A stretch of DNA of 46,142 nucleotides from an uncultured Clostridia bacterium (GTDB lineage Bacteria; Bacillota; Clostridia; Tissierellales; Peptoniphilaceae): contig CAMYBS010000009.1 in assembly GCA_947254025.1 (NCBI GenBank), forward strand, positions 1 through 46,142. The letters are read 5' to 3'. Every line of letters begins with the position of its first letter. Positions within the stretch are counted from its first letter, which is position 1. The position numbers were made by a program, and so were the translations under genes. The notes below the pieces were generated by a model. It saw only the letters and a list, made by a program, of their open reading frames with translations, was not told where the DNA came from and did no database searches. This document shows, one piece after another, positions 2,314 through 24,171 of this stretch.

Positions 2314-2319
2314 CGTTCT

Positions 2320-2412
2320 TCTCATCTTTCAGCTTTGCTGTAGGATTTGGCACCTTGCTCGCAGGTTGCCGGACTTCACAGGGCCTAGTCCCTCCATCAC
2401 TCTTTATGAGAC
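2320..2412 (-). ncRNA. SAM-I (S-box) riboswitch aptamer
   Basis: Read on the minus strand, the RNA has the S-box landmarks in order: a P1 5' strand TCTCAT, the conserved AGAGTGATGGAGGGACT, GGCCCTGTGAAG, CCGGCAACC, AAGGTGCCAAATCC, and the P1 3' strand GATGAGA. It lies between a consensus promoter and a terminator in front of metK, the usual S-box target. High SAM should terminate transcription. Confidence 0.97.
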
Positions 2413-5664: not shown

Positions 5665-6390
5665 TTATATATAGAAGCCGCCGTTGACACGAAGGACTTC
5701 TCCTGTGATGAACTTTGCGTCATCAGATGCCAAGAAGACTGCCGCCTTCGCTGCGTCCTCTGCCGAGCCTATGGCCTCAAGCGGCGTTTCATCCCTGAGC
5801 ATATCTAGTTCAGCTTCTGAATACGCCTTCATCATGTCTGTTGCTATGCAGCCCAAACTTATGGCGTTGACTCTCACACCCGATGGTGCCGCCTCTTTCG
5901 CAACTGCCTTAGTAAAGGCTATGACTGCACCCTTTGATGCGCTGTATACAGTCTCCATCGCAGCACCTGTCTCGCCCCACATGCTAGTAACGTTAATGAT
6001 GCTGCCACTGCCCTCGTGAATCATATGTTTAATGAAGGCCTTAGTCATGTTGAAGCAGCCCTTCATGTTCGTATCAAAAACCTTATCGTACTCCTCTTCG
6101 CTCGTATCTTGCACAAGCTTTGTTAGTGCTACCCCTGCATTGTTCACAAGGACATCCACCTTTTTATATCTTTTAAAAATTTCTTCTTTCATTTGGCAAA
6201 CATCTTCATAATTAGAAACATCTGCACCATAGATAAAACCCTTTGAGTACTTATTCACCTCGTCTAATGTGATCGCCGCTTCATCTATATGCTCGTTGAA
6301 ATTAATAAGAACGTCGTAGCCTTTCTTCGCAAATTCAATGGCCATGGCTCTGCCTATGCCACGCGAAGCACCACTTATAAGAGCTAACAT
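5665..6390 (-). CDS. Short-chain dehydrogenase/reductase, FabG-like
   Basis: A 241-residue classical SDR. It has the nucleotide-binding motif GASRGIG (residues 7-13), NNAG near 87, a catalytic Ser in INVTS and YSASK near 150. The C-terminal GEVLRVNGG motif resembles FabG (3-oxoacyl-ACP reductase). The usual NxxxPG after the active site reads NAISLG, so a strict FabG role is uncertain. It is not beside other fatty-acid genes; an alternative acetoacetyl- or sugar-type oxidoreductase role is possible. AAAGGAGGTAG precedes the ATG. The divergent partner is trmB. Confidence 0.85.
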   Translation of the reverse strand: MLALISGASRGIGRAMAIEFAKKGYDVLINFNEHIDEAAITLDEVNKYSKGFIYGADVSNYEDVCQMKEEIFKRYKKVDVLVNNAGVALTKLVQDTSEEEYDKVFDTNMKGCFNMTKAFIKHMIHEGSGSIINVTSMWGETGAAMETVYSASKGAVIAFTKAVAKEAAPSGVRVNAISLGCIATDMMKAYSEAELDMLRDETPLEAIGSAEDAAKAAVFLASDDAKFITGEVLRVNGGFYI

Positions 6391-6413
6391 ATGACTACCT
6401 CCTTTATGAGATA

Positions 6414-6422
6414 ATTATATCA
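6414..6422 (-). promoter_or_regulatory. Extended -10 promoter of the SDR gene
   Basis: Minus-strand TGA followed by TATAAT (6414-6419), with a weak -35. It lies 24 nt upstream of the start codon. Confidence 0.5.
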
Positions 6423-6471
6423 CAAACTTGCAATTTTGACCATCATATGCTAAACTTGTCTTGGTGATAAA

Positions 6472-7110
6472 ATGAGAATGAGAAAGAAGTGGTGGGCGCT
6501 TCCTGAACTTAAAGAGAGCCCCATCTTTAGATATAGACCTATGGAGAATAAGGGTAAGTGGAACGAAGACTTTAACAATGCGGGTCCCATCTACCTAGAG
6601 CTTGGCTCAGGTATGGGTAGCTTCATAAACTACCTTAAGAACACGTTCAAGGACAAGAACTTCGTCGGCATCGACATGGAGGAAGGCTGCCTTGTATATG
6701 CAAAGCGCATGCTCGAAGAAGAAGATGCATCAAATGTAAGGCTAGTACTTGCAGATATTAGAAACATAGACGAGTACTTTGCCGAGAGCGAGGTAGAAGA
6801 GATTTATATAAACTTCCCTAACCCTTGGCCTAAGAATAGACAGCACAAAAGAAGGCTCACATACCCTGATCAGTTAAAGATGTATAAGAAGATACTTAAG
6901 AAGGGCGGCACTATAAGGCTCAAGACCGACGATATGGGTCTATACGAAGCATCACTTAAGTACTTCGAGAGCGAAGGCTTCGAGATAATATTTAAGACAG
7001 ATGACTTGAATGTAGATGAGTTCAAAGACGACTTCATCAGTGAGTACGAGACAAAGTGGCGCTCACAAGGCGTGAATATCAAGGCGATACTAGTAAGGAA
7101 TGTAAAATGA
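6472..7110 (+). CDS. trmB: tRNA (guanine-N7-)-methyltransferase
   Basis: A 212-residue SAM-dependent enzyme that methylates G46 in the tRNA variable loop. The start MRMRKKWWA is the family signature. The SAM-binding motif LELGSGMGSF lies near 43-52, GIDME near 66-70, and the substrate and catalytic motif NFPNPWPKNRQHKRRL near 115-130. Ribosome site GGTGAT precedes the ATG. The stop overlaps the next gene's start as ATGA (7107-7110), so the two are translationally coupled, although no functional link is evident. Confidence 0.96.
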   Translation: MRMRKKWWALPELKESPIFRYRPMENKGKWNEDFNNAGPIYLELGSGMGSFINYLKNTFKDKNFVGIDMEEGCLVYAKRMLEEEDASNVRLVLADIRNIDEYFAESEVEEIYINFPNPWPKNRQHKRRLTYPDQLKMYKKILKKGGTIRLKTDDMGLYEASLKYFESEGFEIIFKTDDLNVDEFKDDFISEYETKWRSQGVNIKAILVRNVK

Positions 7111-10173: not shown

Positions 10174-10205
10174 ATTTCAATCCACGTGCCCATGACTCTC
10201 GCGAT
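10174..10205 (-). CRISPR. Degenerate terminal CRISPR repeat
   Basis: 32 bases in register with the array repeat. The first 13 (ATTTCAATCCACG), the central CCCATG and GCGA are retained, with nine mismatches elsewhere. In transcript orientation the crRNA handle end is intact but the stem can no longer form, as is typical of an abandoned leader-distal end repeat. It lies 393 bases beyond the last intact repeat, with a gene in between. Confidence 0.85.
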
Positions 10206-10219
10206 TCTTCACATCATCC

Positions 10220-10516
10220 TTATCTTTTCTTATACTCATCTATAACTTTCTTAAAATCCTCATCATCTAACTCTAATATGTTTGCATTAGGGTCTTCAAG
10301 AATTTTTGCCGCCTTCTCAATCTCCACTTCAGGGATATTTCTATCAATTTCCTTTCCTCTCGTGAAAGTATAATCTGTATAAGATATGGTCGCCTTTCTT
10401 ATCCTTCTATCTTTCTCATCGATAGCATCTATATTGACAAACGCAAATCTTCCATCCTCTAATTCGCATAATATTCCACCATCTTCAAAGCTTCCTATTG
10501 CTTTTTTTATTTTCAA
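10220..10516 (-). CDS. Small protein of unknown function between CRISPR repeats
   Basis: 98 residues from a TTG at 10516, chosen because AAAGGA lies eight bases upstream. An overlapping ATG is in another frame. The N-terminal half looks like a small beta domain (AIGSFEDGG, then CELEDGRFAFVNIDAI, then RKATISYTDYTF); the C-terminal half is acidic and helical (EVEIEKAAKILED, then ELDDEDFKKVIDEYKK). No family recognised, no membrane segment. It lies between the degenerate repeat at 10174 and the first intact repeat at 10598, on the strand of array transcription. It could be expressed from read-through of the pre-crRNA; I see no convincing promoter of its own. Confidence 0.65.
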   Translation of the reverse strand: MKIKKAIGSFEDGGILCELEDGRFAFVNIDAIDEKDRRIRKATISYTDYTFTRGKEIDRNIPEVEIEKAAKILEDPNANILELDDEDFKKVIDEYKKR

Positions 10517-10597
10517 TCATATCGTCCTTTCTATAAATTGCACTCGTAGGTAGCAAATCTCTCCTATAACATCTCTTCCCTATTTAATTGCCCCCAT

Positions 10598-11025
10598 ATT
10601 TCAATCCACGCACCCATGTAGGGTGCGACAGAAGAAAAAGAGACACCAGAAGAGCAGGAACAGATTTCAATCCACGCACCCATGTAGGGTGCGACTTACA
10701 ATTGCTTAACAGTCAATGAGACCATAGAAATTTCAATCCACGCACCCATGTAGGGTGCGACCAAACAGCTTAAAGAGGCAATATTAGATCTAATAATTTC
10801 AATCCACGCACCCATGTAGGGTGCGACTAGTCTTTGCTTGTATACACTCGATTACATCTTTATTTCAATCCACGCACCCATGTAGGGTGCGACTGATTGC
10901 AGCCTCGTCTCCAGAGTTAATTGCTGCATTTCAATCCACGCACCCATGTAGGGTGCGACAGAAGAAAAAGAGACACCAGAAGAGCAGGAACAGATTTCAA
11001 TCCACGCACCCATGTAGGGTGTGAC
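10598..11025 (-). CRISPR. CRISPR array, leader-distal block (7 repeats)
   Basis: Repeats of 32 nt start at 10598, 10664, 10730, 10796, 10862, 10928 and 10994. All six spacers are 34 nt. All repeats are of the older variant (CCCATGTAGGG on the plus strand). The last one, next to the gene insertion, carries a further change (GGGTGTGAC for GGGTGCGAC). The spacer at 10630-10663 is repeated exactly at 10960-10993. The array is transcribed on the minus strand. Confidence 0.97.
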
Positions 11026-11049
11026 TTACTCATGCTATTCCACCCCCAA

Positions 11050-11259
11050 CTATATACACTGGCATTCTACCGTCTGTATATCATCCTCATAGAATTCAAT
11101 TAGTTGTGATTGTTTATTATTAGCTTCATTAACAATTATACTGTTTTTTTGAGGATTATTATCCTCTGCAAAAATAAAGTCAGTCACCCTTCCCTCATGT
11201 TCAGTACCATCTTTTAATTTTATTTTTACAAATTTCCCTTCGTATTCTCTAAGCTTCAT
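11050..11259 (-). CDS. LSm-like small protein encoded inside the CRISPR array
   Basis: 69 residues. The pattern GKFVKIKLKDGTEHEGRVTDF, broken here as GKFVKIKLKDG then TEHEGRVTDFIFAEDN, resembles the Sm1 motif of Sm/LSm beta-barrel proteins. IIVNE and the C-terminal IEFYEDDIQTVEC would be strands 4-5. Bacterial proteins of this size and pattern exist in Firmicutes and mobile DNA, generally uncharacterised. A ribosome site AGGGGGT lies 8 bases before ATG 11259. The gene fills a 314-nt gap between two intact repeats (ending 11025, starting 11340) and has the same direction as crRNA transcription. RNA binding is an inference from the fold resemblance. Confidence 0.75.
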   Translation of the reverse strand: MKLREYEGKFVKIKLKDGTEHEGRVTDFIFAEDNNPQKNSIIVNEANNKQSQLIEFYEDDIQTVECQCI

Positions 11260-11339
11260 TTGGTCTACCCCCTAAAATATGTGACCCAGTATTTGAGTAA
11301 ACTATTATGATATTTGTTGTATCAATCTCATTACCTTGA

Positions 11340-14300
11340 ATTTCAATCCACGCACCCATGTAGGGTGCGACCTAAATTCACAGGTTATGGCTTACCAAAA
11401 GATATATTTCAATCCACGCACCCATGTAGGGTGCGACATTATTAAATTAAGCGATTTATTAAGCGTAATATCTATTTCAATCCACGCACCCATGTAGGGT
11501 GCGACCTAAATTCACAGGTTATGGCTTACCAAAAGATATATTTCAATCCACGCACCCATGTAGGGTGCGACCGCGTCCTTGCCTCTGACTATCTCTACCT
11601 TAATGCCATTTCAATCCACGCACCCATGTAGGGTGCGACTTTTAACTTCGGTCTTTTTACCAGTTGTTTTATTTATTTCAATCCACGCACCCATGTAGGG
11701 TGCGACCGCATTAGCGCAAGACACACCACCACTACCACGAATTTCAATCCACGCACCCATGTAGGGTGCGACTCAATATGTCGATTAGTTTGCCTTCTCT
11801 AAAGTAATTTCAATCCACGCACCCATGTAGGGTGCGACCAGATGGTTTATATGCTGGAGCAAGCAGTCAAAGAGATTTCAATCCACGCACCCATGTAGGG
11901 TGCGACTATGAAAAAGTGGGCAGACACAGCCATCGAGTCGATATTTCAATCCACGCACCCATGTAGGGTGCGACTTTTTAACAATGCAGCTTTTGTAATG
12001 CTTAATCAAATTTCAATCCACGCACCCATGTAGGGTGCGACTCGTATCTTATTTTGATTTTCAAAACTTCGTCCTGTATTTCAATCCACGCACCCATGTA
12101 GGGTGCGACTTAAAAAGAAAAAAGTAGTACGAGAAGAGTTTGATTTCAATCCACGCACCCATGTAGGGTGCGACCCCTTGGCGTTCCGCCCTCCCCCCTA
12201 GGCGTACTCTTATTTCAATCCACGCACCCATGTAGGGTGCGACATGGATGATTTCTCATTCACAAAGAGAGTGACAAAAATTTCAATCCACGCACCCATG
12301 TAGGGTGCGACTCTAAATCTTGGGTGGCTTTTTTAGCTTGATTAAAAATTTCAATCCACGCACCCATGTAGGGTGCGACAGGCGTTCTTTTATGATGTGA
12401 TCTAATTCATTTAAATTTCAATCCACGCACCCATGTAGGGTGCGACTTTCAGACTTTCCAACCGCTTTTTCATTGGAAATCATTTCAATCCACGCACCCA
12501 TGTAGGGTGCGACAATACATTTCTTATATCTTGGTCCGCCTGCTCTTTATTTCAATCCACGCACCCATGTAGGGTGCGACTCAGCGACAGGCTCAAATGT
12601 CGATAAGGTCTTAAATTTCAATCCACGCACCCATGTAGGGTGCGACTCGAAAAGTATGAAGAAGATAAGAGCTATTTTGAAAAATTTCAATCCACGCACC
12701 CATGTAGGGTGCGACAGATAGGATAATTTACTTAAATTCTCTGCACTGATTATTTCAATCCACGCACCCATGTAGGGTGCGACGACAAAATAAAAGAAGA
12801 ACAGCATACTGACTTGTCGATTTCAATCCACGCACCCATGTAGGGTGCGACACATGATTATTAACAAATTTTGCGTGTGCATCGTTATTTCAATCCACGC
12901 ACCCATGTAGGGTGCGACAGCAAGGCTTAAAGGTAAGCGCTTTATATCCACATCAATTTCAATCCACGCACCCATGTAGGGTGCGACCAAAGCAGGACTT
13001 GCTCAACTTAGCGGGGGTCGGTAATTTCAATCCACGCACCCATGTAGGGTGCGACTAACACTAATACTATCTTAGGCGGTAATACTGCGAATTTCAATCC
13101 ACGCACCCATGTAGGGTGCGACAATAAGAATCCAATAGAAGCCTATTGGGAGTGGATATTTCAATCCACGCACCCATGTAGGGTGCGACCAACGGAGATA
13201 GCGAAGATGATGATGTAATTAAAATTTCAATCCACGCACCCATGTAGGGTGCGACTTTAAAGCCATCTTCGATAGCTTTATTTTCCATAATTTCAATCCA
13301 CGCACCCATGAAGGGTGCGACGACTGGTGGCGCGAATTTGAGAAAGCGTGGCCAGAGATATTTCAATCCACGCACCCATGAAGGGTGCGACGATAAACTT
13401 TTTGTATAATCTTCCTAGCAGCTAAATATTTCAATCCACGCACCCATGAAGGGTGCGACATTATGACATACTGCAAGCATTACTACCAACAGTTGCAATT
13501 TCAATCCACGCACCCATGAAGGGTGCGACATTATGACATACTGCAAGCATTACTACCAACAGTTGCAATTTCAATCCACGCACCCATGAAGGGTGCGACT
13601 TTTTTTATTTGCTCCAGCTTTAACTTTGTTTTCTGATTTCAATCCACGCACCCATGAAGGGTGCGACAGAAATACTGTGAATATATTATTGAGGTGATTA
13701 AAAATATTTCAATCCACGCACCCATGAAGGGTGCGACAGCCCAATACTACAATCAGTACAAAGCCTAATACAATTTCAATCCACGCACCCATGAAGGGTG
13801 CGACACATTGTTTGTAAATTCTATGACTTGGATTTTACTATTTCAATCCACGCACCCATGAAGGGTGCGACCTTTAAAAAGCCTGCTAGCTTTACAAGAG
13901 GAGCAAACAATTTCAATCCACGCACCCATGAAGGGTGCGACCTACTCCTCGATCAAATCTTCTTTGCCCTCTGCAATAAATTTCAATCCACGCACCCATG
14001 AAGGGTGCGACCCGTCATAATACTCGACGACTTCAAGAGCTTCATCATTTCAATCCACGCACCCATGAAGGGTGCGACCTTGCTTACAGCTTATAGGATA
14101 GGAGATTTTAAAATGATTTCAATCCACGCACCCATGAAGGGTGCGACTTTTTTAGTAATAAGGCCGTTATGGATGCATATAAATTTCAATCCACGCACCC
14201 ATGAAGGGTGCGACTTATGATTATGATTTTACAATAACGACGAGTGCAAAATTTCAATCCACGCACCCATGAAGGGTGCGACTCTTGCCAGAATAGGTCA

Positions 14301-15892
14301 AGATGTTATGTCTGGACTAATTTCAATCCACGCACCCATGAAGGGTGCGACTCTCATCCCTCTTGTTACTTTTTGCGACAACTCTTTTATTTCAATCCAC
14401 GCACCCATGAAGGGTGCGACCATATTTAGATTTAAAATATACCAAAGATACAGAATTTCAATCCACGCACCCATGAAGGGTGCGACTAAAGACTACGATG
14501 TGGAGATAAGGGAGGTTTAATATATTTCAATCCACGCACCCATGAAGGGTGCGACAGAGCTTTTTTAAAATCTCGCGATCTATACTGTAAAAATTTCAAT
14601 CCACGCACCCATGAAGGGTGCGACGATTGGCTCCGCTTGACAAAATGGAAACCAGATATTTCAATCCACGCACCCATGAAGGGTGCGACGAGCAAAACAA
14701 ACAAAGAGAGCTGGGGGTGAATTATTTCAATCCACGCACCCATGAAGGGTGCGACTTAAATCTGTACATATCGCAGTGGATCTCTTTTATATTTCAATCC
14801 ACGCACCCATGAAGGGTGCGACGAATAAGTTGTCTGATATCTGAGCAAATTGGACCCCAATTTCAATCCACGCACCCATGAAGGGTGCGACCTGCCATCC
14901 GTAAGTGCCTATCGGCGTGCTAGTTATTTCAATCCACGCACCCATGAAGGGTGCGACACCGGGAGAAGAAACAGAAGCCCAAGCTTCTATAAATTTCAAT
15001 CCACGCACCCATGAAGGGTGCGACACAACAGGTGCGATTCTTTCATATTGTTACGTAATAAATTTCAATCCACGCACCCATGAAGGGTGCGACTATCTAA
15101 GATTTGAAATAACATTTAATAGTGCCATTATTTCAATCCACGCACCCATGAAGGGTGCGACGCTATTGGTCCGTGGTTTAGTAAGGCGGTTTCTTATTTC
15201 AATCCACGCACCCATGAAGGGTGCGACAAACATTACATATAGACAATATCATTTGTTCAGTATTTCAATCCACGCACCCATGAAGGGTGCGACTCGGGGC
15301 TAATTAGCTTTACGAACTTGAAGGAAGAAATTTCAATCCACGCACCCATGAAGGGTGCGACACAGTTAGCCAATGGAAATACCGCGACAAATGGATTTCA
15401 ATCCACGCACCCATGAAGGGTGCGACAATCTCTTTGTCAATTTAATTACCACCTTTCTTTAATTTCAATCCACGCACCCATGAAGGGTGCGACATTATGA
15501 AACACACAAATTGTAATCCGTGGGATTGATTTCAATCCACGCACCCATGAAGGGTGCGACTACAATCTTTTTAGCTTTAAATTCTTTTAATCTTATTTCA
15601 ATCCACGCACCCATGAAGGGTGCGACCAACTTGCATTTTTTCTATATTTGTTCCGGATTGTATTTCAATCCACGCACCCATGAAGGGTGCGACCACCTTC
15701 ACTTGCTAGATTGTTTAGTTGTCTTCTCATTTCAATCCACGCACCCATGAAGGGTGCGACTGCGAAATTTATGCGCCAAGGCTATGTTAGCGATATTTCA
15801 ATCCACGCACCCATGAAGGGTGCGACTTTGATGATACCTGCGATCGATAAAGAAGTTAATATTTCAATCCACGCACCCATGAAGGGTGCGAC
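11340..15892 (-). CRISPR. Type I-C CRISPR array, main block (68 repeats)
   Basis: 68 repeats of 32 nt with 67 spacers of 33-38 nt. In transcript orientation the repeat is GTCGCACCC, a 5-nt loop, GGGTGCG and the handle TGGATTGAAAT, the classic I-C form with a 7-bp hairpin. Repeats from 11340 to 13224 have CCCATGTAGGG (plus strand); those from 13290 to 15861 have CCCATGAAGGG. The leader is at the high-coordinate end, beside cas1. Exact duplicate spacers occur at 11372-11405 and 11506-11539, and at 13460-13497 and 13530-13567. With the distal block there are 75 repeats and 73 spacers. Confidence 0.99.
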
Positions 15893-16038
15893 AGCTAGAT
15901 GTGCTAAAGATCTATGTTCTTGTTGCACATCTAGTGTTTATGCACACATAATTTTCATTATATACACATTTTTTGCTTAATTTTAAGCATTTTTTTCTGC
16001 GAATCCTCTTGAATTTTCATGTTCATATGAGGTTCGCA
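15893..16038 (-). promoter_or_regulatory. CRISPR leader
   Basis: 146 A/T-rich bases between cas1 and the youngest repeat. A TATAAT box (15957-15962, minus strand) can start pre-crRNA about 55-60 nt before the array. Next to the first repeat is a perfect 10-bp inverted repeat CTAGATGTGC (15895-15904) / GCACATCTAG (15925-15934). Further out is a 16-nt palindrome (974-989 of this kilobase) and, just after the cas1 stop, a hairpin pairing 15999-16008 with 16029-16037. Confidence 0.85.
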
Positions 16039-17073
16039 CTAATTTATTATAAATGGAGGATATGCCTCAAGGTCTCCTCTAATCGTCCTTGCTAAAAGCA
16101 TAGCTTGTACATATGGCAATAATCCAATCTCGATTTTTTCTTCTAGAAATGGGTGTGTAATCTCATCTTGCAAACGTTTGTTCCATATGTCTAAATATTT
16201 TTTCTTTCCATTTTCTGTAAATTCATATGAACCATTATCTTTTGCAATAAAATCTTTCTCTTCGATTTGGGATTTATTTATTAAGCTTAGCACAAATCTA
16301 TCTGCCATATATGCTCTCATCTCTTCTGATAGATCAAGCGCTAATGATTGCCTTCCAGGTCTATCTTTATGGTAAAAACCAACATATGGATCAAGGCCTA
16401 CTGTTTCTAATGCGTTTTGTACTAACACTCTAAGCATTCCATATGAAAACGACAGCATTGCATTTACGGGATCTTTTGGTGGCCTTCTGTTTCTATCTGT
16501 AAACTTAAAGTACTCTTTGCTGTTTAATATAAGGTAATCAAAATTTTTAAAGTATTCTCGCGCTGCATCTCCTTCTATACCCAAGAGTTCTGTATAGTCT
16601 TTTGCATTAAAGGCGTTTATTTTACTTTCTTTTAACTTGCTTATGGATTCCTCTACTTCTTCTTTATAAATTGTATCTTTATAATCTCTAAGGTATCTAT
16701 CAAGTACTTTTATGGAATTATACAGTTTTCCTAGCACGAATGACTTTGCGTATGAAAGCGACCTCTCGTCATTTTCCGAAATTCTAAACTGTTCTTTTCT
16801 TAGTAATACGTTTCCATTGATTACTCCTGAGACTCTTGCACAAAAATATCCTCCTAGTGTTAAAAAACTAATGCCGACATTGTTTTTCATACACATTTCT
16901 AATAGTTTAGGACTTGCTCCAACATAGTTGAAGCATACTATGTTTTCAAAGTTCTGTATTGGTGATTGGAAGACTTTACCATTGGCTTCATCTTTAACTA
17001 CTATATTGCTTCCATCTTTCGCTAAATAAATATTTTCATTTGTAATATATAGTGTGTTTAACAGCTTTCTCAT
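16039..17073 (-). CDS. cas1: CRISPR-associated integrase Cas1 (type I-C)
   Basis: A 344-residue integrase subunit that, with Cas2 and here Cas4, inserts new spacers at the leader end. The N-terminal beta domain is followed by the catalytic helical domain. Expected metal ligands are Glu167 in GIEGDAAREYF, His235 in GFYHKDRPGRQ, and the acidic cluster at Asp247/Glu250 in SLALDLSEEMR. Full length for type I-C. The start overlaps the cas4 stop as ATGA. It is the last cas gene before the leader. cas2 does not follow it, unlike in standard I-C loci. Confidence 0.98.
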   Translation of the reverse strand: MRKLLNTLYITNENIYLAKDGSNIVVKDEANGKVFQSPIQNFENIVCFNYVGASPKLLEMCMKNNVGISFLTLGGYFCARVSGVINGNVLLRKEQFRISENDERSLSYAKSFVLGKLYNSIKVLDRYLRDYKDTIYKEEVEESISKLKESKINAFNAKDYTELLGIEGDAAREYFKNFDYLILNSKEYFKFTDRNRRPPKDPVNAMLSFSYGMLRVLVQNALETVGLDPYVGFYHKDRPGRQSLALDLSEEMRAYMADRFVLSLINKSQIEEKDFIAKDNGSYEFTENGKKKYLDIWNKRLQDEITHPFLEEKIEIGLLPYVQAMLLARTIRGDLEAYPPFIIN

Positions 17074-17726
17074 TCTTCCATCACTATCCTATCAATATAA
17101 TTTATAACACTCTTTTTCTTTTTCGTGAGTTTTGGCATGCAGTAGTCAACTAAGGAACAATTTTTACAGTTGATGTTATTACTTGCTCTAGGAATCTTGT
17201 TTTGAGTAAATATCTCATACATTTGTGATACTATATCTCTTACTTCTTGCCTTAACTCATCTGTAATTTCTATTTCTAACCTTTTATTTGGGCTTTTATA
17301 ATAAAGTGCTGACTTTTTTAGTTTAATATTATGCATTTCTTCTAAACACATTATTTCCGCAACTAGTTGATAGATATCTGCCTTTGTCTTTTTTACTCTA
17401 CCTTTTTTATATTCAACTACATAAGGTAGCCACAATCCATTGTAGTTTTCTATTTCAACTCCGTTCTCATTTTTCTCATATATAACCAGGTCACAGACAC
17501 CAACTATCTTTAGTTCGTCTGACTTAACACGTAAGGATCTTTCATATATTCTGTCTTTTCTTTTTTCAAAAAAATATGGATCATCCACGTTTTCATGTAT
17601 AAGTTTGCCAAGTGTTGTATCTTTATTTTCAAACCAAATTTGTTCTAGCTCTAGAAGAGCCCACTGCCTCTTGCAAAATGTGAAGTGCTGTATTCTACTT
17701 AAGCTTAAATAGTCTTCTTCATCCAT
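17070..17726 (-). CDS. cas4: CRISPR-associated exonuclease Cas4 (type I-C)
   Basis: 218 residues. A RecB-like nuclease that trims prespacers and selects PAM-adjacent ends. Visible are Cys18 in FCKRQW, the nuclease residues Asp79 and Glu105-x-Lys107 (VEYKKGR), a QxxxE-type helix near 120, and the C-terminal iron-sulfur cysteines 187, 190 and 196 (CKNC, then DYC). All four cluster cysteines are present. It starts nine bases after the cas7 stop with a weak ribosome site, so translation is probably coupled; its end overlaps cas1 by four bases. Confidence 0.97.
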   Translation of the reverse strand: MDEEDYLSLSRIQHFTFCKRQWALLELEQIWFENKDTTLGKLIHENVDDPYFFEKRKDRIYERSLRVKSDELKIVGVCDLVIYEKNENGVEIENYNGLWLPYVVEYKKGRVKKTKADIYQLVAEIMCLEEMHNIKLKKSALYYKSPNKRLEIEITDELRQEVRDIVSQMYEIFTQNKIPRASNNINCKNCSLVDYCMPKLTKKKKSVINYIDRIVMEE

Positions 17727-17735
17727 ATATCTAAT

Positions 17736-18590
17736 TTATATACCTGTTAAATATTCTACTTTTAGGCCTTTTCCCTCATATTCTTTTAATTTTTCTTCAT
17801 TTAGTCTAATATTGTAGGATTTATAATCTTGACTATCTATCTCTGGTTTGTCAAATTCAAGTAGTTCTTTTATTTTACCGCTTGATACATTTCCTATTTC
17901 ACAATCGTGAACAAACCAGAATATATCTCTAACCATCATTGATCCATCTGGTCTAGCTGATGATGAATCATTTATAAAAAGTTCTTGTAAACATTCTTTT
18001 AGTACAGCTAAATCGTCATCTGTAAATTTGTTCTTCTTTGCAAAATTTACATTTACCGCTCCATTAACAACATATATAGCATGATTAACATAATGTTTTG
18101 AGCCCATTGTATCGGAGGATTTGCCGCCACCTTCTTTTTCCATGCTGTTAACGCTCTTTGTAATCTGCATAGTTGTAATATCTATAGGCTCAAGCGATTT
18201 AGCGATGGATATACTAACTGGTCCTCTTATGCCGACAGCTTTCTTGTCATATGTTATTACTTGTCCAAAGCTTCTAACATCAAGCCAAGTTCCACAGCAT
18301 AAATTATATGCTTCTTCATCTGTTGCTTTTTTATCTACAACGCTGCTATATCTTTTTTCAAGTGATGTAAATCCGTCATCTGACTTTTCATTGCTCTTTA
18401 CAAAGATGTTGTATCCTTTATCTTGCATTCTATTTCTAATCTTTCTTTTTATACAAACATCTGAAATTTCTCCATATCCATAAGAATCACTTCTTGGCAT
18501 GTTGCCTGCAAGCGGATCTCCATTTGGATTTGCATTATTTACTTCAATTGTCATTATGAAGTCGACCTTTTTTTCAATTACCTTACTCAT
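17736..18590 (-). CDS. cas7: Cascade backbone subunit Cas7 (Csd2, type I-C)
   Basis: 284 residues. Repeated subunits coat the crRNA spacer; each subunit folds out every sixth base of the guide. The N-terminal motif IEVNNANPNGDPLAGNMPR is the Csd2 hallmark, and later VRSFGQVI and RGPVSISIAKS also match the family. The start ATG overlaps the cas8c stop in TAATG. Expression should be controlled by the cas5c promoter at 21304-21332 and therefore by the CreR-like RNA. Confidence 0.98.
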   Translation of the reverse strand: MSKVIEKKVDFIMTIEVNNANPNGDPLAGNMPRSDSYGYGEISDVCIKRKIRNRMQDKGYNIFVKSNEKSDDGFTSLEKRYSSVVDKKATDEEAYNLCCGTWLDVRSFGQVITYDKKAVGIRGPVSISIAKSLEPIDITTMQITKSVNSMEKEGGGKSSDTMGSKHYVNHAIYVVNGAVNVNFAKKNKFTDDDLAVLKECLQELFINDSSSARPDGSMMVRDIFWFVHDCEIGNVSSGKIKELLEFDKPEIDSQDYKSYNIRLNEEKLKEYEGKGLKVEYLTGI

Positions 18591-20542
18591 TATTTTTCCT
18601 CCTTATTTATATCATTATTTTTTAAACCAAAACGTTTTTCTGCATAATAGCCATATAAAAACCTACTACTTAAAGCTTTATTGTCTTCTTTTTCTGATAT
18701 ACCAAGTTCGCCTAATTTTATAAATATATCTTCTTTCTCTCTGTCTAGCAATACTGCAAAGCCAGGATTTGTGGCCTTTAATTTGTTCATATATGTTTTA
18801 GTTTTTTCGTCTAAAACTTTTGTCATTTGTAAAGGATTTTTTGTAAATGATGTCCAATACCTATCTGCATTAGTAAGTCTTATTGCTTCACTCTTTTTTG
18901 TTTTTTCTCCGTCACCATACTTAGCTGCGTCAAAAGTCAGTCTTTCTATCATTTCATACACAGCTAATAGTCTACCATAAAGGTATGACCTATCTAAATT
19001 ATCTCTGTCAAGCATATCTTCATTTTCCTCCTTTGATGAATCTCTTAAAACCGCAAGGGATATTGACTGTAAAATATTCCATGTATTTTTATAGTTTAGC
19101 TTTTTTCTAATATTCATATCGATTGCTTTAACAATGTTCTTAGGCATCTCTTTGCCCTCTATGATTGAAATTATCATTTTTTGCAGCTGATCTTTTTTAA
19201 AGCTATCGTTATCATTAACTAGTTTCTTTTCTCTTTCTGTTCCATAAGCAGCATCTAGTATTGAAAATATACTAGGTGTCTTCCTTACCAAATTATTCTT
19301 AGCAAGTGTATAATAATAGTAAGTATTTGACCATGTTTCAAGGTTTTTATAAAGCTGTGATGTCTGAAGCTCTTTAAAGTATCTAATCGATGATCTTCCA
19401 TCGTTAACTTTTTCTAAAATTAGCGCACTATATCTTGAATCTTTAGGTACTTTATCTACACCTGTGATAAAAGAATTAGCTACTTTCTCATTTTCGCTAT
19501 AAACCGCTTTAAATGTGTCCATCGTAGCATCTTCAGCTTCAATCTTATCGATATCGAACTCATCAGACTCGTCTACGCCTGCTATGTTTGGATTTGCAGA
19601 TGTGATAAAAAGCTTCTTATCATTTCTAATGTCATCAGAAAACCAGTTAACTATATACTGCTGACCGCCGAGCCATTTAGACGAATTTTTATTGTCCATT
19701 AAATATTTTAACATTAAATGAGCTTTCTCTGATGTTTCATAGCCTATACTAATTACATCGCTACCTTCTTTAAATCTTCCGATATATGATTGTTTAACTG
19801 CAGAAATAAGTTTAGAATTACCTAAAATACCACGATGCTTGTCTACAATATAATCTTCTTTTCCTGTTATATTACATATTCCGTTCTTTGTTATAGAGTT
19901 TCTAACGTTATTAATATGAACTTGATGGAGTTTTTTGTATTTTGTTACTGAATAATCTTCAAGATTTTTAAAGTCTACTACTTCAAACTCTAAATATATC
20001 TTGTCTAATTCAAGTTTCTTTGTTGTTTCTTTATTTTTATCATTAATAAATGTATATTCTAGTATAGAGGCTTTATCGGTCAACTTTAAAACATCAACAC
20101 CTAATGCATATCTTAAAGCTTCATATATAAAATTTTCTTTTTTAATATAATTGTAAATAATTCTTATAAAATCTTTAATTTCTGTGTCTTTTTCTTCGGC
20201 TATCCAATTTTCTAGCGCATCCATATAATCCTTGTGTCTTTCTTCATTGTAAGAAGCAATATATGAGCAATTATCTACAAGCATATGCGGCATAGAGTTG
20301 CTTGTTCTATTAACTGAGTCCAAGCTTACTGGAAAGATTATTTTCTCATCTTTAACCAAAAATGAACTCTTAACAAAATTAGAATCTCTATCAATGCTTA
20401 TCTTCAATATATTTTCACCTGTAGATACTATAGAATTATGGTATAAAGGAAGTATTACTGAGTCATTACCATTGTAATTATCAACTAAACCTGCCTCGAG
20501 GGATTTATCATATGTTTTTACAAGCGAATTAATCAATGTCAT
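18590..20542 (-). CDS. cas8c: Cascade large subunit Cas8c (Csd1, type I-C)
   Basis: 650 residues, within the usual range for Cas8c, which recognises the TTC PAM and recruits Cas3. In type I-C an internal start in this gene typically makes the small subunit Cas11c; I see a candidate C-terminal region (about residues 500-650) but did not identify a decisive internal ribosome site. Segments such as WLGGQQYIVNWFSDD and NWLEEK-like helices agree with the family. The ribosome site AGGGAG overlaps the end of cas5c. The start is four bases past the cas5c stop. Confidence 0.96.
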   Translation of the reverse strand: MTLINSLVKTYDKSLEAGLVDNYNGNDSVILPLYHNSIVSTGENILKISIDRDSNFVKSSFLVKDEKIIFPVSLDSVNRTSNSMPHMLVDNCSYIASYNEERHKDYMDALENWIAEEKDTEIKDFIRIIYNYIKKENFIYEALRYALGVDVLKLTDKASILEYTFINDKNKETTKKLELDKIYLEFEVVDFKNLEDYSVTKYKKLHQVHINNVRNSITKNGICNITGKEDYIVDKHRGILGNSKLISAVKQSYIGRFKEGSDVISIGYETSEKAHLMLKYLMDNKNSSKWLGGQQYIVNWFSDDIRNDKKLFITSANPNIAGVDESDEFDIDKIEAEDATMDTFKAVYSENEKVANSFITGVDKVPKDSRYSALILEKVNDGRSSIRYFKELQTSQLYKNLETWSNTYYYYTLAKNNLVRKTPSIFSILDAAYGTEREKKLVNDNDSFKKDQLQKMIISIIEGKEMPKNIVKAIDMNIRKKLNYKNTWNILQSISLAVLRDSSKEENEDMLDRDNLDRSYLYGRLLAVYEMIERLTFDAAKYGDGEKTKKSEAIRLTNADRYWTSFTKNPLQMTKVLDEKTKTYMNKLKATNPGFAVLLDREKEDIFIKLGELGISEKEDNKALSSRFLYGYYAEKRFGLKNNDINKEEK

Positions 20543-20546
20543 TTAA

Positions 20547-21272
20547 TCATCTCCCTTCTAATTTTGCATATTCTTCATCAACCGAAAGTTCTTGCTCTGG
20601 ATATTTAAAATCATATGTTGAAAGTTCGTTTTTAACTTCACAATCTTCTTGATCTTTAAAATTAATTACGCCGTCCTTCATTACCACACTTCCAAAGTAA
20701 GAATAAAGTTTTTCTCCTGGCTTATTTGGATACTTAAAACTGTTAAACATTAGGCCAAAGAATAAAGTTTGTCCTTCGTAATAACTTGGCTTTTTTTTGT
20801 ACTCTTCTTCTGTAATTGCGTTAACATATCCTTGACACTCGCTAGCTCCAATAAAGATTGAACGCCTTCCACCTCTTTCGATAGAGCGCTGCATAATTGC
20901 TTCATGCTTTTTCATGTTTCTATCCTTTTTTAAGTCATCTCTAAATAAGTTCCACTCAAAATGGTATTTAATTAAATACTCTGGATTGACTAAGTATGTT
21001 ATGTTGCTTCTGTCTTGTTTGTAATTATCTTTCGGCACTCTAACTCCCATAGTATGTGTTCTTATTGGATTAATTACCTTGACTTCATCCACAACATTTT
21101 TAAGCACAGGTTTAAAGTAACACGCATCAAGTATACCTAAGACAGCTTGCTTTGTTATAACTGGATATGTTGCTTTTTCTCCACCGCCCTTTGTCTCTGG
21201 TGATGTTATTAAACCATAATCTCCTGTCAATCTAATGTAAAAATATTTAGATTTTTCGTTTGGACCATCCAT
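20547..21272 (-). CDS. cas5c: Cascade subunit and pre-crRNA endonuclease Cas5c (Cas5d)
   Basis: 241 residues. In type I-C this protein replaces Cas6: it cuts pre-crRNA at the base of the repeat hairpin, leaving an 11-nt 5' handle, and stays bound to it. Visible are the RAMP opening YFYIRLTGDYGLITSPE, the segment TYPVITKQAVLGILDA, the Lys-His pair in MKKHEAIMQRSIERGG (catalytic in characterised relatives) and RRSIFIGASECQGYV. I chose ATG 21272, preceded by AGGAGG at good spacing. The open frame upstream crosses the promoter. It is the first gene of the transcript cas5c-cas8c-cas7-cas4-cas1. Confidence 0.97.
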   Translation of the reverse strand: MDGPNEKSKYFYIRLTGDYGLITSPETKGGGEKATYPVITKQAVLGILDACYFKPVLKNVVDEVKVINPIRTHTMGVRVPKDNYKQDRSNITYLVNPEYLIKYHFEWNLFRDDLKKDRNMKKHEAIMQRSIERGGRRSIFIGASECQGYVNAITEEEYKKKPSYYEGQTLFFGLMFNSFKYPNKPGEKLYSYFGSVVMKDGVINFKDQEDCEVKNELSTYDFKYPEQELSVDEEYAKLEGR

Positions 21273-21303
21273 AGTATTACCTCCTTTTCTATGTTCACTT
21301 AAT

Positions 21304-21332
21304 ATTATATTATCAATAATTTTGTTTGTCAA
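21304..21332 (-). promoter_or_regulatory. Promoter of cas5c-cas8c-cas7-cas4-cas1, with a pseudo-protospacer
   Basis: Minus-strand TTGACA (21327-21332), 17-nt spacer, TATAAT (21304-21309). The plus strand here is TTC (21294-21296) followed by a sequence (from 21297) that matches the pseudo-spacer at 21416 in 16 of the first 19 positions. A 35-nt Cascade footprint from 21297 would cover the whole core promoter. Confidence 0.9.
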
Positions 21333-21371
21333 GTGTTTTTTTAAATTTAAGAATATATTTTAGTTTCTTTG

Positions 21372-21380
21372 TGGTATAAT
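21372..21380 (+). promoter_or_regulatory. Extended -10 promoter of the CreR-like RNA
   Basis: TGG followed by TATAAT (21375-21380). The expected start at about 21387 falls at the foot of the pseudo-repeat hairpin. The element TGTGGTATAAT is identical to that before cas2. Confidence 0.75.
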
Positions 21381-21386
21381 AAGTTT

Positions 21387-21461
21387 ATCGTAGTATTGAC
21401 TACGCGGATTGAAAAACTTACTATTACATTATAATAAAGGGCATTAGCTCTTTATTTTTTT
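21387..21461 (+). ncRNA. CreR-like self-regulating crRNA-like RNA
   Basis: A predicted RNA of about 75 nt. Hairpin CGTAGT (21389-21394), loop ATTG, ACTACG (21399-21404) takes the place of the repeat stem. The 11-nt handle CGGATTGAAAA (21405-21415) matches the array handle TGGATTGAAAT at 9 of 11 positions. The pseudo-spacer starts at 21416. Pseudo-spacer positions 1-5, 7-11, 13-17 and 19 match the plus strand from 21297, right after TTC, with mismatches only at 6, 12 and 18; similarity is lost from 20. An intrinsic terminator replaces the second repeat. It overlaps the 3' end of cas3 in antisense. Inference: Cas5c processes it, Cascade uses it to bind but not destroy the cas5c promoter. Cas-regulating RNAs of this logic are known for other CRISPR types. 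An antitoxin RNA of the CreTA type is less likely, as no toxin unit is seen. Confidence 0.85.
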
Positions 21462-23868
21462 CTTGATCTATGTTAAAGCCATTATCATTATAGTATTGCT
21501 TTTTAAGTAAAAGAATATCACCATCCATATACGAATCAACAAAGTCATTAAGCTTATCGTTTTCATATACATTTATAGTGTAGCTTTGCATCTCTTTTAA
21601 AAGTCTCTTTATTTTTGATATATTATAGGTTATAGTGTCTTCATTTTCTAAAAGCATCTTTAATTCATCATATTTTCCCTCATTTGATTTTCCTGTTATT
21701 GAACTTTTATAACAAACTATCATTGCCTTTGTATCATTTTTGATTAGGTTAATATTATCAGCAGCGGTTTTGAAACTTTGTCTTAAGATAGGAAAATCTT
21801 TTGTTTTTGTTCCAATATTATTAATGTTATCACTTAATAAGTCAAAAGCACTTGGCTTATCCTTTTCAATCGGATATGCCATTAAGCTTTCATACTTTGT
21901 GTAATAACGCGCAAAAAATTCATCATTTAGTTTATCAATATCTATCTCTCCAGTTTTTTTATTTAGTATAATCTCAGTTATGTCTTTTTTATATTGTATC
22001 GATTCTAAATAATTTAGGTTTTCTTCAAAGCCCATGTTAACTAATTTAACTATACCTTCTTTTAATAACCCGTATCTGTTGCATCTTCCTATAGCTTGTA
22101 TAAGAGAGTCAATGCCTGCATAGGACCTAATAAGTCTTTTAAAATCAACGTTGACCCCAGCCTCAATAAGCTGTGTCGAAACAAGCTTTACAGCTACGCC
22201 TTCTGAAAGTTTTGCTTTTATTTCATTAAGTATATCCTTTCTATGTTCTGGGCAAAAATCTGTATTTAATAAATATATATTAAAGTTATTTCCAAGATCT
22301 TCAAGTAGCATTTTGTATAAATTTCTAGCAGCTCTCTTCGTATTTAATATAATTAGGTTTGAATCCTCTGCATGTGATAATACTTCTGTCTTAATATCTA
22401 CTAAACTGCTTTTCTTACCATCATTAAAATTATATACCTTTGTCCTTTTAAATACCTTGAGCTGATTTTGACTAAGTCTTACAAGATTAGCATTTTTTGC
22501 ATAATTAAGCCTATATTTAATGTTGTCCTCATCATACTTAGGCTGAGTTGCCGTTGATAAAACTATGTTAGCTTTCATTACTGAGGATATAAAATTCATT
22601 GCAAGATTAAATAAATATGTCATCTCTATAGGAAGCGACTGCACCTCGTCAAGTATGATTACAGAGTTTATTAACGAGGAGAATCTCCTTATGTTTGTTG
22701 ACTTTCCTTTAAATAAAGTATTTATGAATTGTACTAAAGTTGTCAAAACTACTGGTGCATCAAAGCTTTCAAATAAATATTCTTTACACATATTTTCTTT
22801 ACTCTCGTCAGCACTTTCATTCTTAGTGTTGTCAAATGATGATTTATTAACTATATTTGAGTGGTATTCAAGTATACTCTTGTCTTTTAACACGTCTTTG
22901 ACTTCACTAGCATTTTGCTCTAAAACAGATAAGAACGCAGTTATATAAAAAAATCTTTTTTTACCTTTAAACTTCATTTGATTTGTAGCATATAACATGC
23001 TCAAAAGCGTTTTCCCAGCTCCAGTTGCAAGATCAAGCTTGTATATTCCATTATTATCAGTGCGGCTCCTACTGTCTACAATAGATTTTAAGTCATTTTT
23101 CACTTTATCCAGATTATTTTTAGGTTCATGAAAACTAGCATATTTCTCATCTAATCTTGCCTTATACACTTCAGCTTTTTCTTGTGCATTATACATAACT
23201 CTATCGTCAATGACTAAATCGTAAGCATTTATAGTATCAACAATGTCTGCATTTTTTAATATTGATAAAAAGAGCCTCATGTATAAAGATAAATAATAAT
23301 AATTAGCTTTATCATCAATATATTTTATCTTATCTTTAGAATTTTTATATTCAAAATATCCTCTCTTAAATATTTCTAATAAATCTACATTTAATTTTTG
23401 TTCAATCTCCTCAATATATGGTAGTACTTCATTTTTGAAGCAAATTTCATCTTCATCAAATCTAAGTCTATCTTTTAATCTGTTAGATAAATTATTGTCA
23501 ATGTCATAATAAGGAATGTCATAAATACCATGATGTGCGCTTATAACATAGGCCATGATATAGAAGTACTCCTGTATTATGTTTAGCTCAAACGAACTTT
23601 GCTTGGCGCACTTACTATATAATGACAATAAATACAACGCTCCTGCCGATGAATGATTTACTCTCTCATCAGTATTATTTATTATTTTATGTTGAAAAGC
23701 TTCACTAGCTTTTCCAATATCGTGAAGTATTCCTACAAGGTACAATGTATTTTCAAAATCTATCTCACTCGCTAAAGATTTAGCTTTATCAGCTGTATTT
23801 TTCAAATGAGTTATAAGCTCTTGCTTTTTAATTTTGCCTTCAGCATTGTCAATGTGTGCGTATTTCAT
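21424..23868 (-). CDS. cas3: CRISPR-associated nuclease-helicase Cas3
   Basis: 814 residues. The N-terminal HD nuclease has His21, His49-Asp50 in GILHDIGKA, His72 in NHSSAG and a later SAHHG. The superfamily 2 helicase follows, with Walker A ATGAGKT near 285, Walker B ILDEVQSLP near 410, STATQP, and motif VI QAIGRCNRYG near 620. It degrades DNA bound by Cascade. All key residues are present. The ATG lies nine bases after the cas2 stop, with AGGAGG overlapping that stop. The 3' end is overlapped by the antisense CreR-like RNA. It is transcribed from the cas2 promoter, separate from Cascade. Confidence 0.98.
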   Translation of the reverse strand: MKYAHIDNAEGKIKKQELITHLKNTADKAKSLASEIDFENTLYLVGILHDIGKASEAFQHKIINNTDERVNHSSAGALYLLSLYSKCAKQSSFELNIIQEYFYIMAYVISAHHGIYDIPYYDIDNNLSNRLKDRLRFDEDEICFKNEVLPYIEEIEQKLNVDLLEIFKRGYFEYKNSKDKIKYIDDKANYYYLSLYMRLFLSILKNADIVDTINAYDLVIDDRVMYNAQEKAEVYKARLDEKYASFHEPKNNLDKVKNDLKSIVDSRSRTDNNGIYKLDLATGAGKTLLSMLYATNQMKFKGKKRFFYITAFLSVLEQNASEVKDVLKDKSILEYHSNIVNKSSFDNTKNESADESKENMCKEYLFESFDAPVVLTTLVQFINTLFKGKSTNIRRFSSLINSVIILDEVQSLPIEMTYLFNLAMNFISSVMKANIVLSTATQPKYDEDNIKYRLNYAKNANLVRLSQNQLKVFKRTKVYNFNDGKKSSLVDIKTEVLSHAEDSNLIILNTKRAARNLYKMLLEDLGNNFNIYLLNTDFCPEHRKDILNEIKAKLSEGVAVKLVSTQLIEAGVNVDFKRLIRSYAGIDSLIQAIGRCNRYGLLKEGIVKLVNMGFEENLNYLESIQYKKDITEIILNKKTGEIDIDKLNDEFFARYYTKYESLMAYPIEKDKPSAFDLLSDNINNIGTKTKDFPILRQSFKTAADNINLIKNDTKAMIVCYKSSITGKSNEGKYDELKMLLENEDTITYNISKIKRLLKEMQSYTINVYENDKLNDFVDSYMDGDILLLKKQYYNDNGFNIDQEKNKELMPFIIM
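21435..21461 (+). terminator. Terminator of the CreR-like RNA
   Basis: TAAAGGGC, loop ATTA, GCTCTTTA (8 bp including one G-U) followed by seven T residues. It lies within the last codons of cas3 on the opposite strand. Confidence 0.85.
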
Positions 23869-23877
23869 AATTGCCTC

Positions 23878-24171
23878 CTAAAATATAAAAGTATCTTCCT
23901 CTGGGTTGAAGCTTGTAGTCCTACCCATCATTTCTACTTTAGGCTTCCAATTGCTTCCAAGATGATAAAATCTTATGCTATCCTTCTCTAAATCTATCTC
24001 TTTTCTTATTTTATATTTAAGCTCTTCAAACTCGGCAGGTGTTACTATGCATTCAAAAACTGAATTTTGTACCCTTTGTCCGTAGTCCTTACATACATTA
24101 GCAACTCTTCTTAACCTTGTTCTTCCTCTGCTATCCATAGTTTCAACGTCATATGTGGCAAGTATCAACAT
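23878..24171 (-). CDS. cas2: CRISPR-associated protein Cas2
   Basis: 97 residues. The ferredoxin-like fold begins MLILATYDVET with the conserved Asp8; RLRRVANVCKDYGQRVQNSVFEC is the family core helix and strand, and SIRFYHLGSNW follows, all typical of type I-C Cas2. It forms the Cas1-Cas2 integrase with the distant cas1 product. It is the first gene of its transcript (ribosome site GGGGTGA) and lies upstream of cas3. In standard I-C loci it is the last gene, after cas1, so here it has been relocated. Confidence 0.97.
   Translation of the reverse strand: MLILATYDVETMDSRGRTRLRRVANVCKDYGQRVQNSVFECIVTPAEFEELKYKIRKEIDLEKDSIRFYHLGSNWKPKVEMMGRTTSFNPEEDTFIF

Follow-up and report, generated by a model that had tools for sequence, protein, structure and literature searches.

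A crRNA-like RNA gene is very probably encoded at positions 21372-21461, between cas3 and cas5c of a type I-C CRISPR-Cas locus, and its sequence predicts that the RNA guides the cell's own I-C Cascade to the cas5c promoter and represses cas5c-cas8c-cas7-cas4-cas1. The best reading, which the sequence comparisons support, is that of a CreR-like RNA through which the I-C Cascade would repress its own operon. The guide likely lets the CRISPR system lower its own production, since in 27 other genomes such a guide also matches its promoter and the two have changed in step.

The cas locus and its guide-RNA element

The window, by which we mean the whole stretch of 46,142 nucleotides that was analysed, contains a full type I-C set consisting of cas3, cas5c, cas8c, cas7, cas4, cas1, cas2 and an array. 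The closest named relative found is Fenollaria massiliensis, with 99% identity in cas5c. On the minus strand the order is cas2, cas3, a gap of 151 nt, cas5c-cas8c-cas7-cas4-cas1 and then the array, with cas2 placed apart from cas1. The gap itself holds two divergent promoters, one on the minus strand leading to cas5c and one on the plus strand leading to the guide-RNA element. The features are as follows.

10174..15893, minus strand: CRISPR array, with 76 exact copies of the handle TGGATTGAAAT
16039..17073, minus strand: cas1 (TIGR03640)
17070..17726, minus strand: cas4 (TIGR00372)
17736..18590, minus strand: cas7 (TIGR02589)
18590..20542, minus strand: cas8c (TIGR01863)
20547..21272, minus strand: cas5c (TIGR01876, scanned as a longer frame reaching 21332), with its ATG at 21272; the product is predicted to be the processing nuclease and handle binder
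21280-21285, minus strand: ribosome site of cas5c, from the sequence
21294..21296, plus strand: target PAM TTC, from the sequence (TTC in 25 of 28 related targets)
21297..21315, plus strand: target site over the -10 of the cas5c promoter, from the guide match after TTC
21304..21332, minus strand: cas5c promoter, with TTGACA at 21332-21327, a 17-nt spacer and TATAAT at 21309-21304 (12 of 12 consensus positions)
21372..21380, plus strand: extended -10 TGGTATAAT (TGG TATAAT) of the guide-RNA gene, from the sequence and also picked by a hexamer scan
21389..21404, plus strand: repeat-like hairpin, from the RNA fold
21405..21415, plus strand: 11-nt handle CGGATTGAAAA, sharing 9 of 11 positions with the array handle
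21416..21434, plus strand: guide positions 1-19, identical to the target at 16 of 19
21433..21461, plus strand: intrinsic terminator, with a stem at 21433-21456 and then a T-run, overlapping the 3' end of cas3
21424..23868, minus strand: cas3 (TIGR01587 and TIGR01596), outside the operon thought to be repressed
23878..24171, minus strand: cas2 (TIGR01573), upstream of cas3

These parts had been proposed in a sequence-only reading of the same DNA, and the extended -10, the hairpin, the handle with 9 of 11 matches, the guide and the terminator were confirmed base by base. The coordinates that it had given for the guide, with mismatches at positions 6, 12 and 18, were exact on recomputation, and the overlap that it had described between the target and the cas5c TATAAT was borne out, the hexamer lying inside 21297-21315. 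The transcript is predicted to start near 21387. Folded as RNA, the segment 21383-21462 forms two hairpins with an unpaired guide between them (-15.7 kcal/mol, z -3.11), and none of 200 shuffles was as stable; the terminator is the sole one within 21200-21550 (shuffle mean 0.0). From position 9 on, the guide overlaps the 3' end of cas3 on the opposite strand, where the cas3 stop codon is at 21424-21426. Handle and hairpin mark the element as a crRNA-like unit that lies outside the array and whose handle derives from the repeat.

At Rfam gathering scores, the whole window yielded a SAM riboswitch (RF00162, 72.9 bits, 2319-2412, minus strand) and nothing else. The far end of the array (10174-11340) is broken twice by non-repeat stretches, one of which holds a frame of 98 amino acids (10220-10516) without a Pfam match, and a spacer of about 33 nt is present twice, near 10630 and 10961.

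Guide positions 1-19 equal the plus strand at 21297-21315 directly after TTC, with mismatches solely at 6, 12 and 18, so that, beside a PAM, the guide is partially complementary to the promoter that leads its own cas operon. One of the 1,835 TTC sites in the window matches the guide at 16 of 16 counted positions, and the runner-up does so at 12 of 16. When the guide was shuffled and scored against the five TTC sites of the gap, 16 of 16 was reached by 2 of 50,000 dinucleotide shuffles and by none of 200,000 plain shuffles; against all TTC sites of the window, none of 1,500 dinucleotide shuffles reached it. The pattern of PAM plus target (at most two mismatches) occurs once in the nearest whole genome examined (G001), at the cas5c promoter. 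A chance match was rejected on these shuffles, on the scores at the window TTC sites and on the random re-pairing of guides and promoters given below.

The cas5c promoter runs straight into the gene through a predicted leader of about 25 nt with a ribosome site, leaving little room for a toxin gene. This bears on the idea of a CreA-type antitoxin RNA that would hold a toxin gene down via Cascade. The build would suit it: the one-repeat creA of the I-B system of Haloarcula hispanica, as described in the part of PMC8501985 consulted, likewise has a single repeat-like unit and a guide with a terminator at its end, with a TTC PAM and partial complementarity to a promoter, and the combination of one repeat and terminator is for that reason not new. 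However, CreA represses a toxin gene, whereas the target here leads into cas5c; the guide does not target a toxin gene promoter as in CreTA and, judged from the predicted 25-nt leader, is uncoupled from a toxin gene, as is CreR. We regard the antitoxin reading as very unlikely.

Prophages are known to carry solitary I-C repeats with anti-CRISPR activity (PMC10651486), and a Racr-type repeat that traps Cas proteins in a dead complex would, like RacrIC1, be a solitary type I-C repeat-like RNA. Unlike the Racr RNAs, which the consulted part of that source presents as phage-borne inhibitors without a matched promoter guide, the element lies within the cas locus between cas3 and cas5c, rather than being encoded by a virus or mobile element, and its guide has a matched and covarying target, which makes this explanation exceedingly improbable. 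An exact scan of viral contigs for the handle plus guide, with positions 6 and 12 free, found no copies, and a plasmid search using 20500-22300 gave no match.

Occurrence and covariation among type I-C loci

The search for Cas5c covered four overlapping sets of genomes and gave a match in 28 of 199 relatives, in 33 of 249 genomes from the order, in 61 of 391 from the class and in 110 of 398 from the phylum. The elements of the first set were chosen by handle and place alone, which gave 17 (16 loci and the window). In all 17, the best-scoring site lay toward cas5c on the same strand and matched at 13 to 16 of 17 counted positions, and the PAM was TTC in 14, TTT in two and TAC in one. A wide scan then looked in 217 loci plus the window for isolated handles accompanied by a matched site, and returned 51 rows including duplicates. 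Admission demanded at least 12 of 15 core positions, and the height of the core matches is partly a product of this selection. The 51 rows were reduced to 28 loci by dropping six chance rows without TTC (L008 and its duplicate L041, L032, L071, L078 and L111), merging duplicates and adding L086, which had fallen outside the scan owing to a misplaced start codon. Three loci were left out of the count: L096, which has a handle and hairpin and for which a matched target was not found; L257, where a handle of 9/11 goes with a 15/15 match at TTC, the target lying beside the element without a clear cas promoter; and L218 (11/15). Also excluded were weak, partial or second Cas5c rows (G195, G305, G855, G670, G624, G956, G644, G779, G771, G695 and G667) and second Cas5c copies (G751, G845 and G904).

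Counted by the end of the cas5c frame, and with the window and G001 taken as one, gap elements were present in 27 of 189 unique loci. In the set of 28 type I-C loci, which consists of 27 loci and the window, the guides differ, and each matches the promoter region of its own cas5c. L023 is a weak case among them. A stricter terminator search found none in seven of the 28, for four of which a looser search gave candidates.

The presence of the element follows the length of the cas3-cas5c gap. It was found in none of 125 loci with gaps shorter than 60 nt, in 1 of 17 with gaps of 60-139 nt and in 25 of 37 with gaps of at least 140 nt; in a further ten loci the gap could not be measured, and one of these has the element. 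Of the 12 long gaps that lack an element, some seem to be due to a misplaced start codon. The scan could detect elements elsewhere within about 1.5 kb. The association with a split operon, which the sequence-only reading had pointed out for this locus, is supported by the lack of elements in the 125 loci with the shortest gaps.

For 40 hand-picked loci without a gap element we read the stretch upstream of cas3, which contained 11 isolated handles with at least 10 of 11 matches. At least five of the 40 (L219, L224, L229, L234 and L235) match a TTC site in their own stretch at 12 or more of 15 positions, as compared with 5 of 429 in a swap control, two of these being between the sisters L234 and L235. 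The target lies within or beside the promoter of the following gene in L224, L229 and L234, a gene that, from its place and sequence, we read as probably cas3. In L234 and L235 the target strand is opposite to that of the gap elements.

In a quick tree built from 186 Cas5c rows, some of them with long and unsure branches, the gap element requires 10 changes, at least seven of which are forced by well supported branches. It is present in 16 of the 19 rows of the window's clade and has been lost in some close sisters, namely L008, L009 and L057. L008, a close sister of L010, L011 and L015, has kept the terminator and lacks the handle; its promoter matches the sister guides at 10 of 13 positions at most, and at 9 when TTC sites are considered. 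In F. massiliensis 9401234 (L001, about 5900-6722), guide and target are kept and about 75 bp including the cas5c -35 and the element promoter are missing. The cas5c gene of this strain is split into two overlapping pieces, apparently by a frameshift. The locus seems to be in decay here and does not count as evidence for constraint.

When the 28 guides and promoters were re-paired at random, the best sum in 20,000 tries was 323, as compared with a real sum of 389; with TTC sites only, the corresponding values were 277 and 376. For the 56 locus pairs with alignable guides, which are not independent of each other, we counted 208 core differences that were paired, 6 in the guide only and 13 in the target only. 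Within a group of eight related loci, guides score 12-13 of 13 on their own targets and 8-11 in cross comparisons. The turnover of guide and target is uneven: L011 and L015 differ at 6 of 13 core positions in the guide and 6 of 13 in the target at a cas5c difference of 7% and with a single difference in the 30 positions of the terminator stretch, whereas L052 and L017 show no core change despite a cas5c difference of 23%. Relatives that lose the guide-promoter match while keeping the surrounding sequence would speak against the sequence-only reading; the 28 loci compared here bear the reading out, for guide and promoter correspond and vary in concert, positions 6, 12 and 18 being free.

These changes also weigh on the notion of a functionless relic, either a decayed repeat and spacer derived from an array or an accidental self-targeting spacer. 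In its favour, the stem of the element differs from the array repeat, there is a single repeat only, and L008, L009 and L057 have lost the element. A relic should not, on the other hand, have a guide that changes between species together with its target, or free bases limited to those that Cascade does not read, and we consider it most improbable that the element is one.

Several observations were made in other genomes. L257 (G976) has its isolated handle at about 1708-1763 and its matched TTC site just upstream of the element itself; the guide possibly acts on its own or a neighbouring promoter. L032 (G047) shows two matches to Cas5c separated by about 8 kb, one of them amid many repeat-like words, perhaps two I-C cassettes in one genome. 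The Streptococcus satellite phage Javan145 (MK448333; L258) has a small I-C array, a degenerate repeat-spacer-repeat at about 1311-1386, between the integrase and the next gene. With positions 6 and 12 set aside, its spacer agrees at 14 of 15 positions with a site in the same phage, near 2634, which is upstream of a gene starting at 2856 and adjoins TCT, not TTC. The array region of the window is also matched by six further Streptococcus satellite phage records.

The footprint of guide-target pairing

To describe the pairing across the 28 loci, we counted matches between each guide and its own target by position. Positions 1-5 match in 27, 28, 28, 28 and 27 loci, positions 7-11 in 28, 26, 27, 27 and 28, and positions 13-17 in 27, 28, 25, 21 and 19, whereas positions 6, 12 and 18 match in 6 loci each. 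Position 19 matches in 2 and position 20 in 11 loci; pairing across the set ends near 17, and positions from 19 on are at background level. The dips at 6 and 12 were not produced by a demanded mismatch, because both positions were merely omitted from the score, and the profile was near-identical when the site was chosen on the full 17 positions, omitting one at a time. In eight loci with mutually dissimilar guides, core positions 1-5, 7-11, 13 and 14 each match in at least 7 of the 8, and positions 6, 12 and 18 in 2, 3 and 1. Class 1 complexes flip out each sixth guide base (PMC11127173), and the flipped bases of type I-E include positions 6, 12 and 18 (PMC5965380), according to the parts of these sources consulted. 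As read from the aligned pairs, the positional profile is the footprint of a type I Cascade with every sixth base flipped out.

When the site was chosen by the guide alone, the PAM was TTC in 25, TTT in 2 and TAC in 1 of the 28 loci, at a background TTC share of 2.8%. TTC and TTT are PAMs of another I-C system (PMC10865793, in part). A comparison of the array region with 50,697 phage records matched 11 records, and the one inspected was a repeat-like match. Since the spacer-based test rested on this single record, the PAM assignment is drawn from the 28 targets together with published work.

According to the hexamer scan, 19 of the 28 loci have a -10 that overlaps guide positions 1-17. The -10 is found at about positions 34-47 in L002, L037, L066, L069 and L105, where Cascade would be a roadblock just past the start, and elsewhere or unclearly in L005, L121, L129 and L180. 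The mode of block would therefore differ in the nine loci where the -10 is not under positions 1-17. These nine favour the view that the guide serves as a transcript roadblock, or else directs cutting or priming (Cas3 attack, spacer uptake), rather than repressing a promoter, as do the presence of a consensus PAM and a cas3 intact by its domains. However, pairing ends near 17 across the set, and a guide cutting its own promoter would be lethal or lost; we judge this explanation very unlikely, though slightly less so than the relic and antitoxin readings.

Proposed mechanism and relation to known systems

Under the preferred reading of promoter repression, the RNA would run from its predicted start to the terminator. 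To judge from the handle, Cas5c would cut at the base of the hairpin and leave the handle at 21405-21415, an 11-nt handle being established for Cas5d (PMC5965380). Cascade with this RNA would bind after TTC 21294-21296 and pair with the coding strand of cas5c at positions 1-17 except every sixth, and the complex on the -10 would keep RNA polymerase off. Pairing would stop near 17, where the terminator stem begins, and cutting by Cas3 would presumably not be licensed. An anti-CRISPR or the crRNAs of the array may draw Cascade away, upon which repression would lift and more Cascade be made, by analogy with the relief of CreR by competing crRNA and anti-CRISPRs (PMC12737573). The operon concerned encodes Cascade, cas4 and cas1, with cas3 and cas2 outside. 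An engineered I-C Cascade of Neisseria lactamica that lacks Cas3 brings about repression at a TTC target lying over a -10 by pairing to the coding strand, as the element would; unlike the element, with its natural guide paired to about 17 and cas3 present, that tool has a designed 35-nt spacer, as far as the part of PMC10865793 consulted describes it.

Reportedly, tracr-L, a long-form tracrRNA described by Workman et al. in 2021, turns Cas9 on its own promoter. The autorepression proposed here is similar in that the effector of a CRISPR operon, with a short natural guide, represses that operon; tracr-L differs in being of type II, with an unrelated effector and RNA.

The nearest likeness is to CreR, cas-regulating RNAs of which have been described for types I-B, I-E and V-A (PMC13131331). 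As in the accounts given in the consulted parts of PMC13131331, PMC12737573 and PMC12948488, a crRNA-like RNA outside the array is partly complementary to a cas promoter and is expected to work together with the Cas effector and not to cut. Unlike these, the element is of type I-C with a crRNA that would be made by Cas5c instead of Cas6, consists of one repeat-like unit and a terminator at the split between cas3 and cas5c transcription, and has a predicted function. The earlier suggestion that it seems new may hold for the subtype, in that no I-C CreR was found in the open literature searched, and does not extend to the class of RNA, of which I-B, I-E and V-A members are on record; Liu et al. 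2023 or Shmakov et al. 2023 may list I-C elements. The sequence comparisons support CreR-like self-control in type I-C and widen it from one locus to a family.

More tentatively, and leaning somewhat against it as a whole, we suggest that I-C systems of Bacillota may repeatedly have acquired a private guide for autorepression, placed at the promoter that heads the Cascade operon, that of cas5c if the operon is split and the one before cas3 if it is not. Guide and target would be rewritten in lockstep, in some sisters faster than the adjoining terminator, as if the address were kept private against phage-borne guides or repeats, and the rewritings would show which bases Cascade reads in nature.

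If the proposed function is true, RNA-guided CRISPR self-control would extend to type I-C, a common subtype, with a signature in many loci. The 28 natural guide-target pairs would then be data, made by selection, on what I-C Cascade needs for binding, probably without cutting: apparently TTC and positions 1-5, 7-11 and 13-15, with little past 17. Such data could inform the design of repressors that leave Cas3 in place, and the element would predict in which I-C systems Cas production should rise once Cascade is tied up by an anti-CRISPR.
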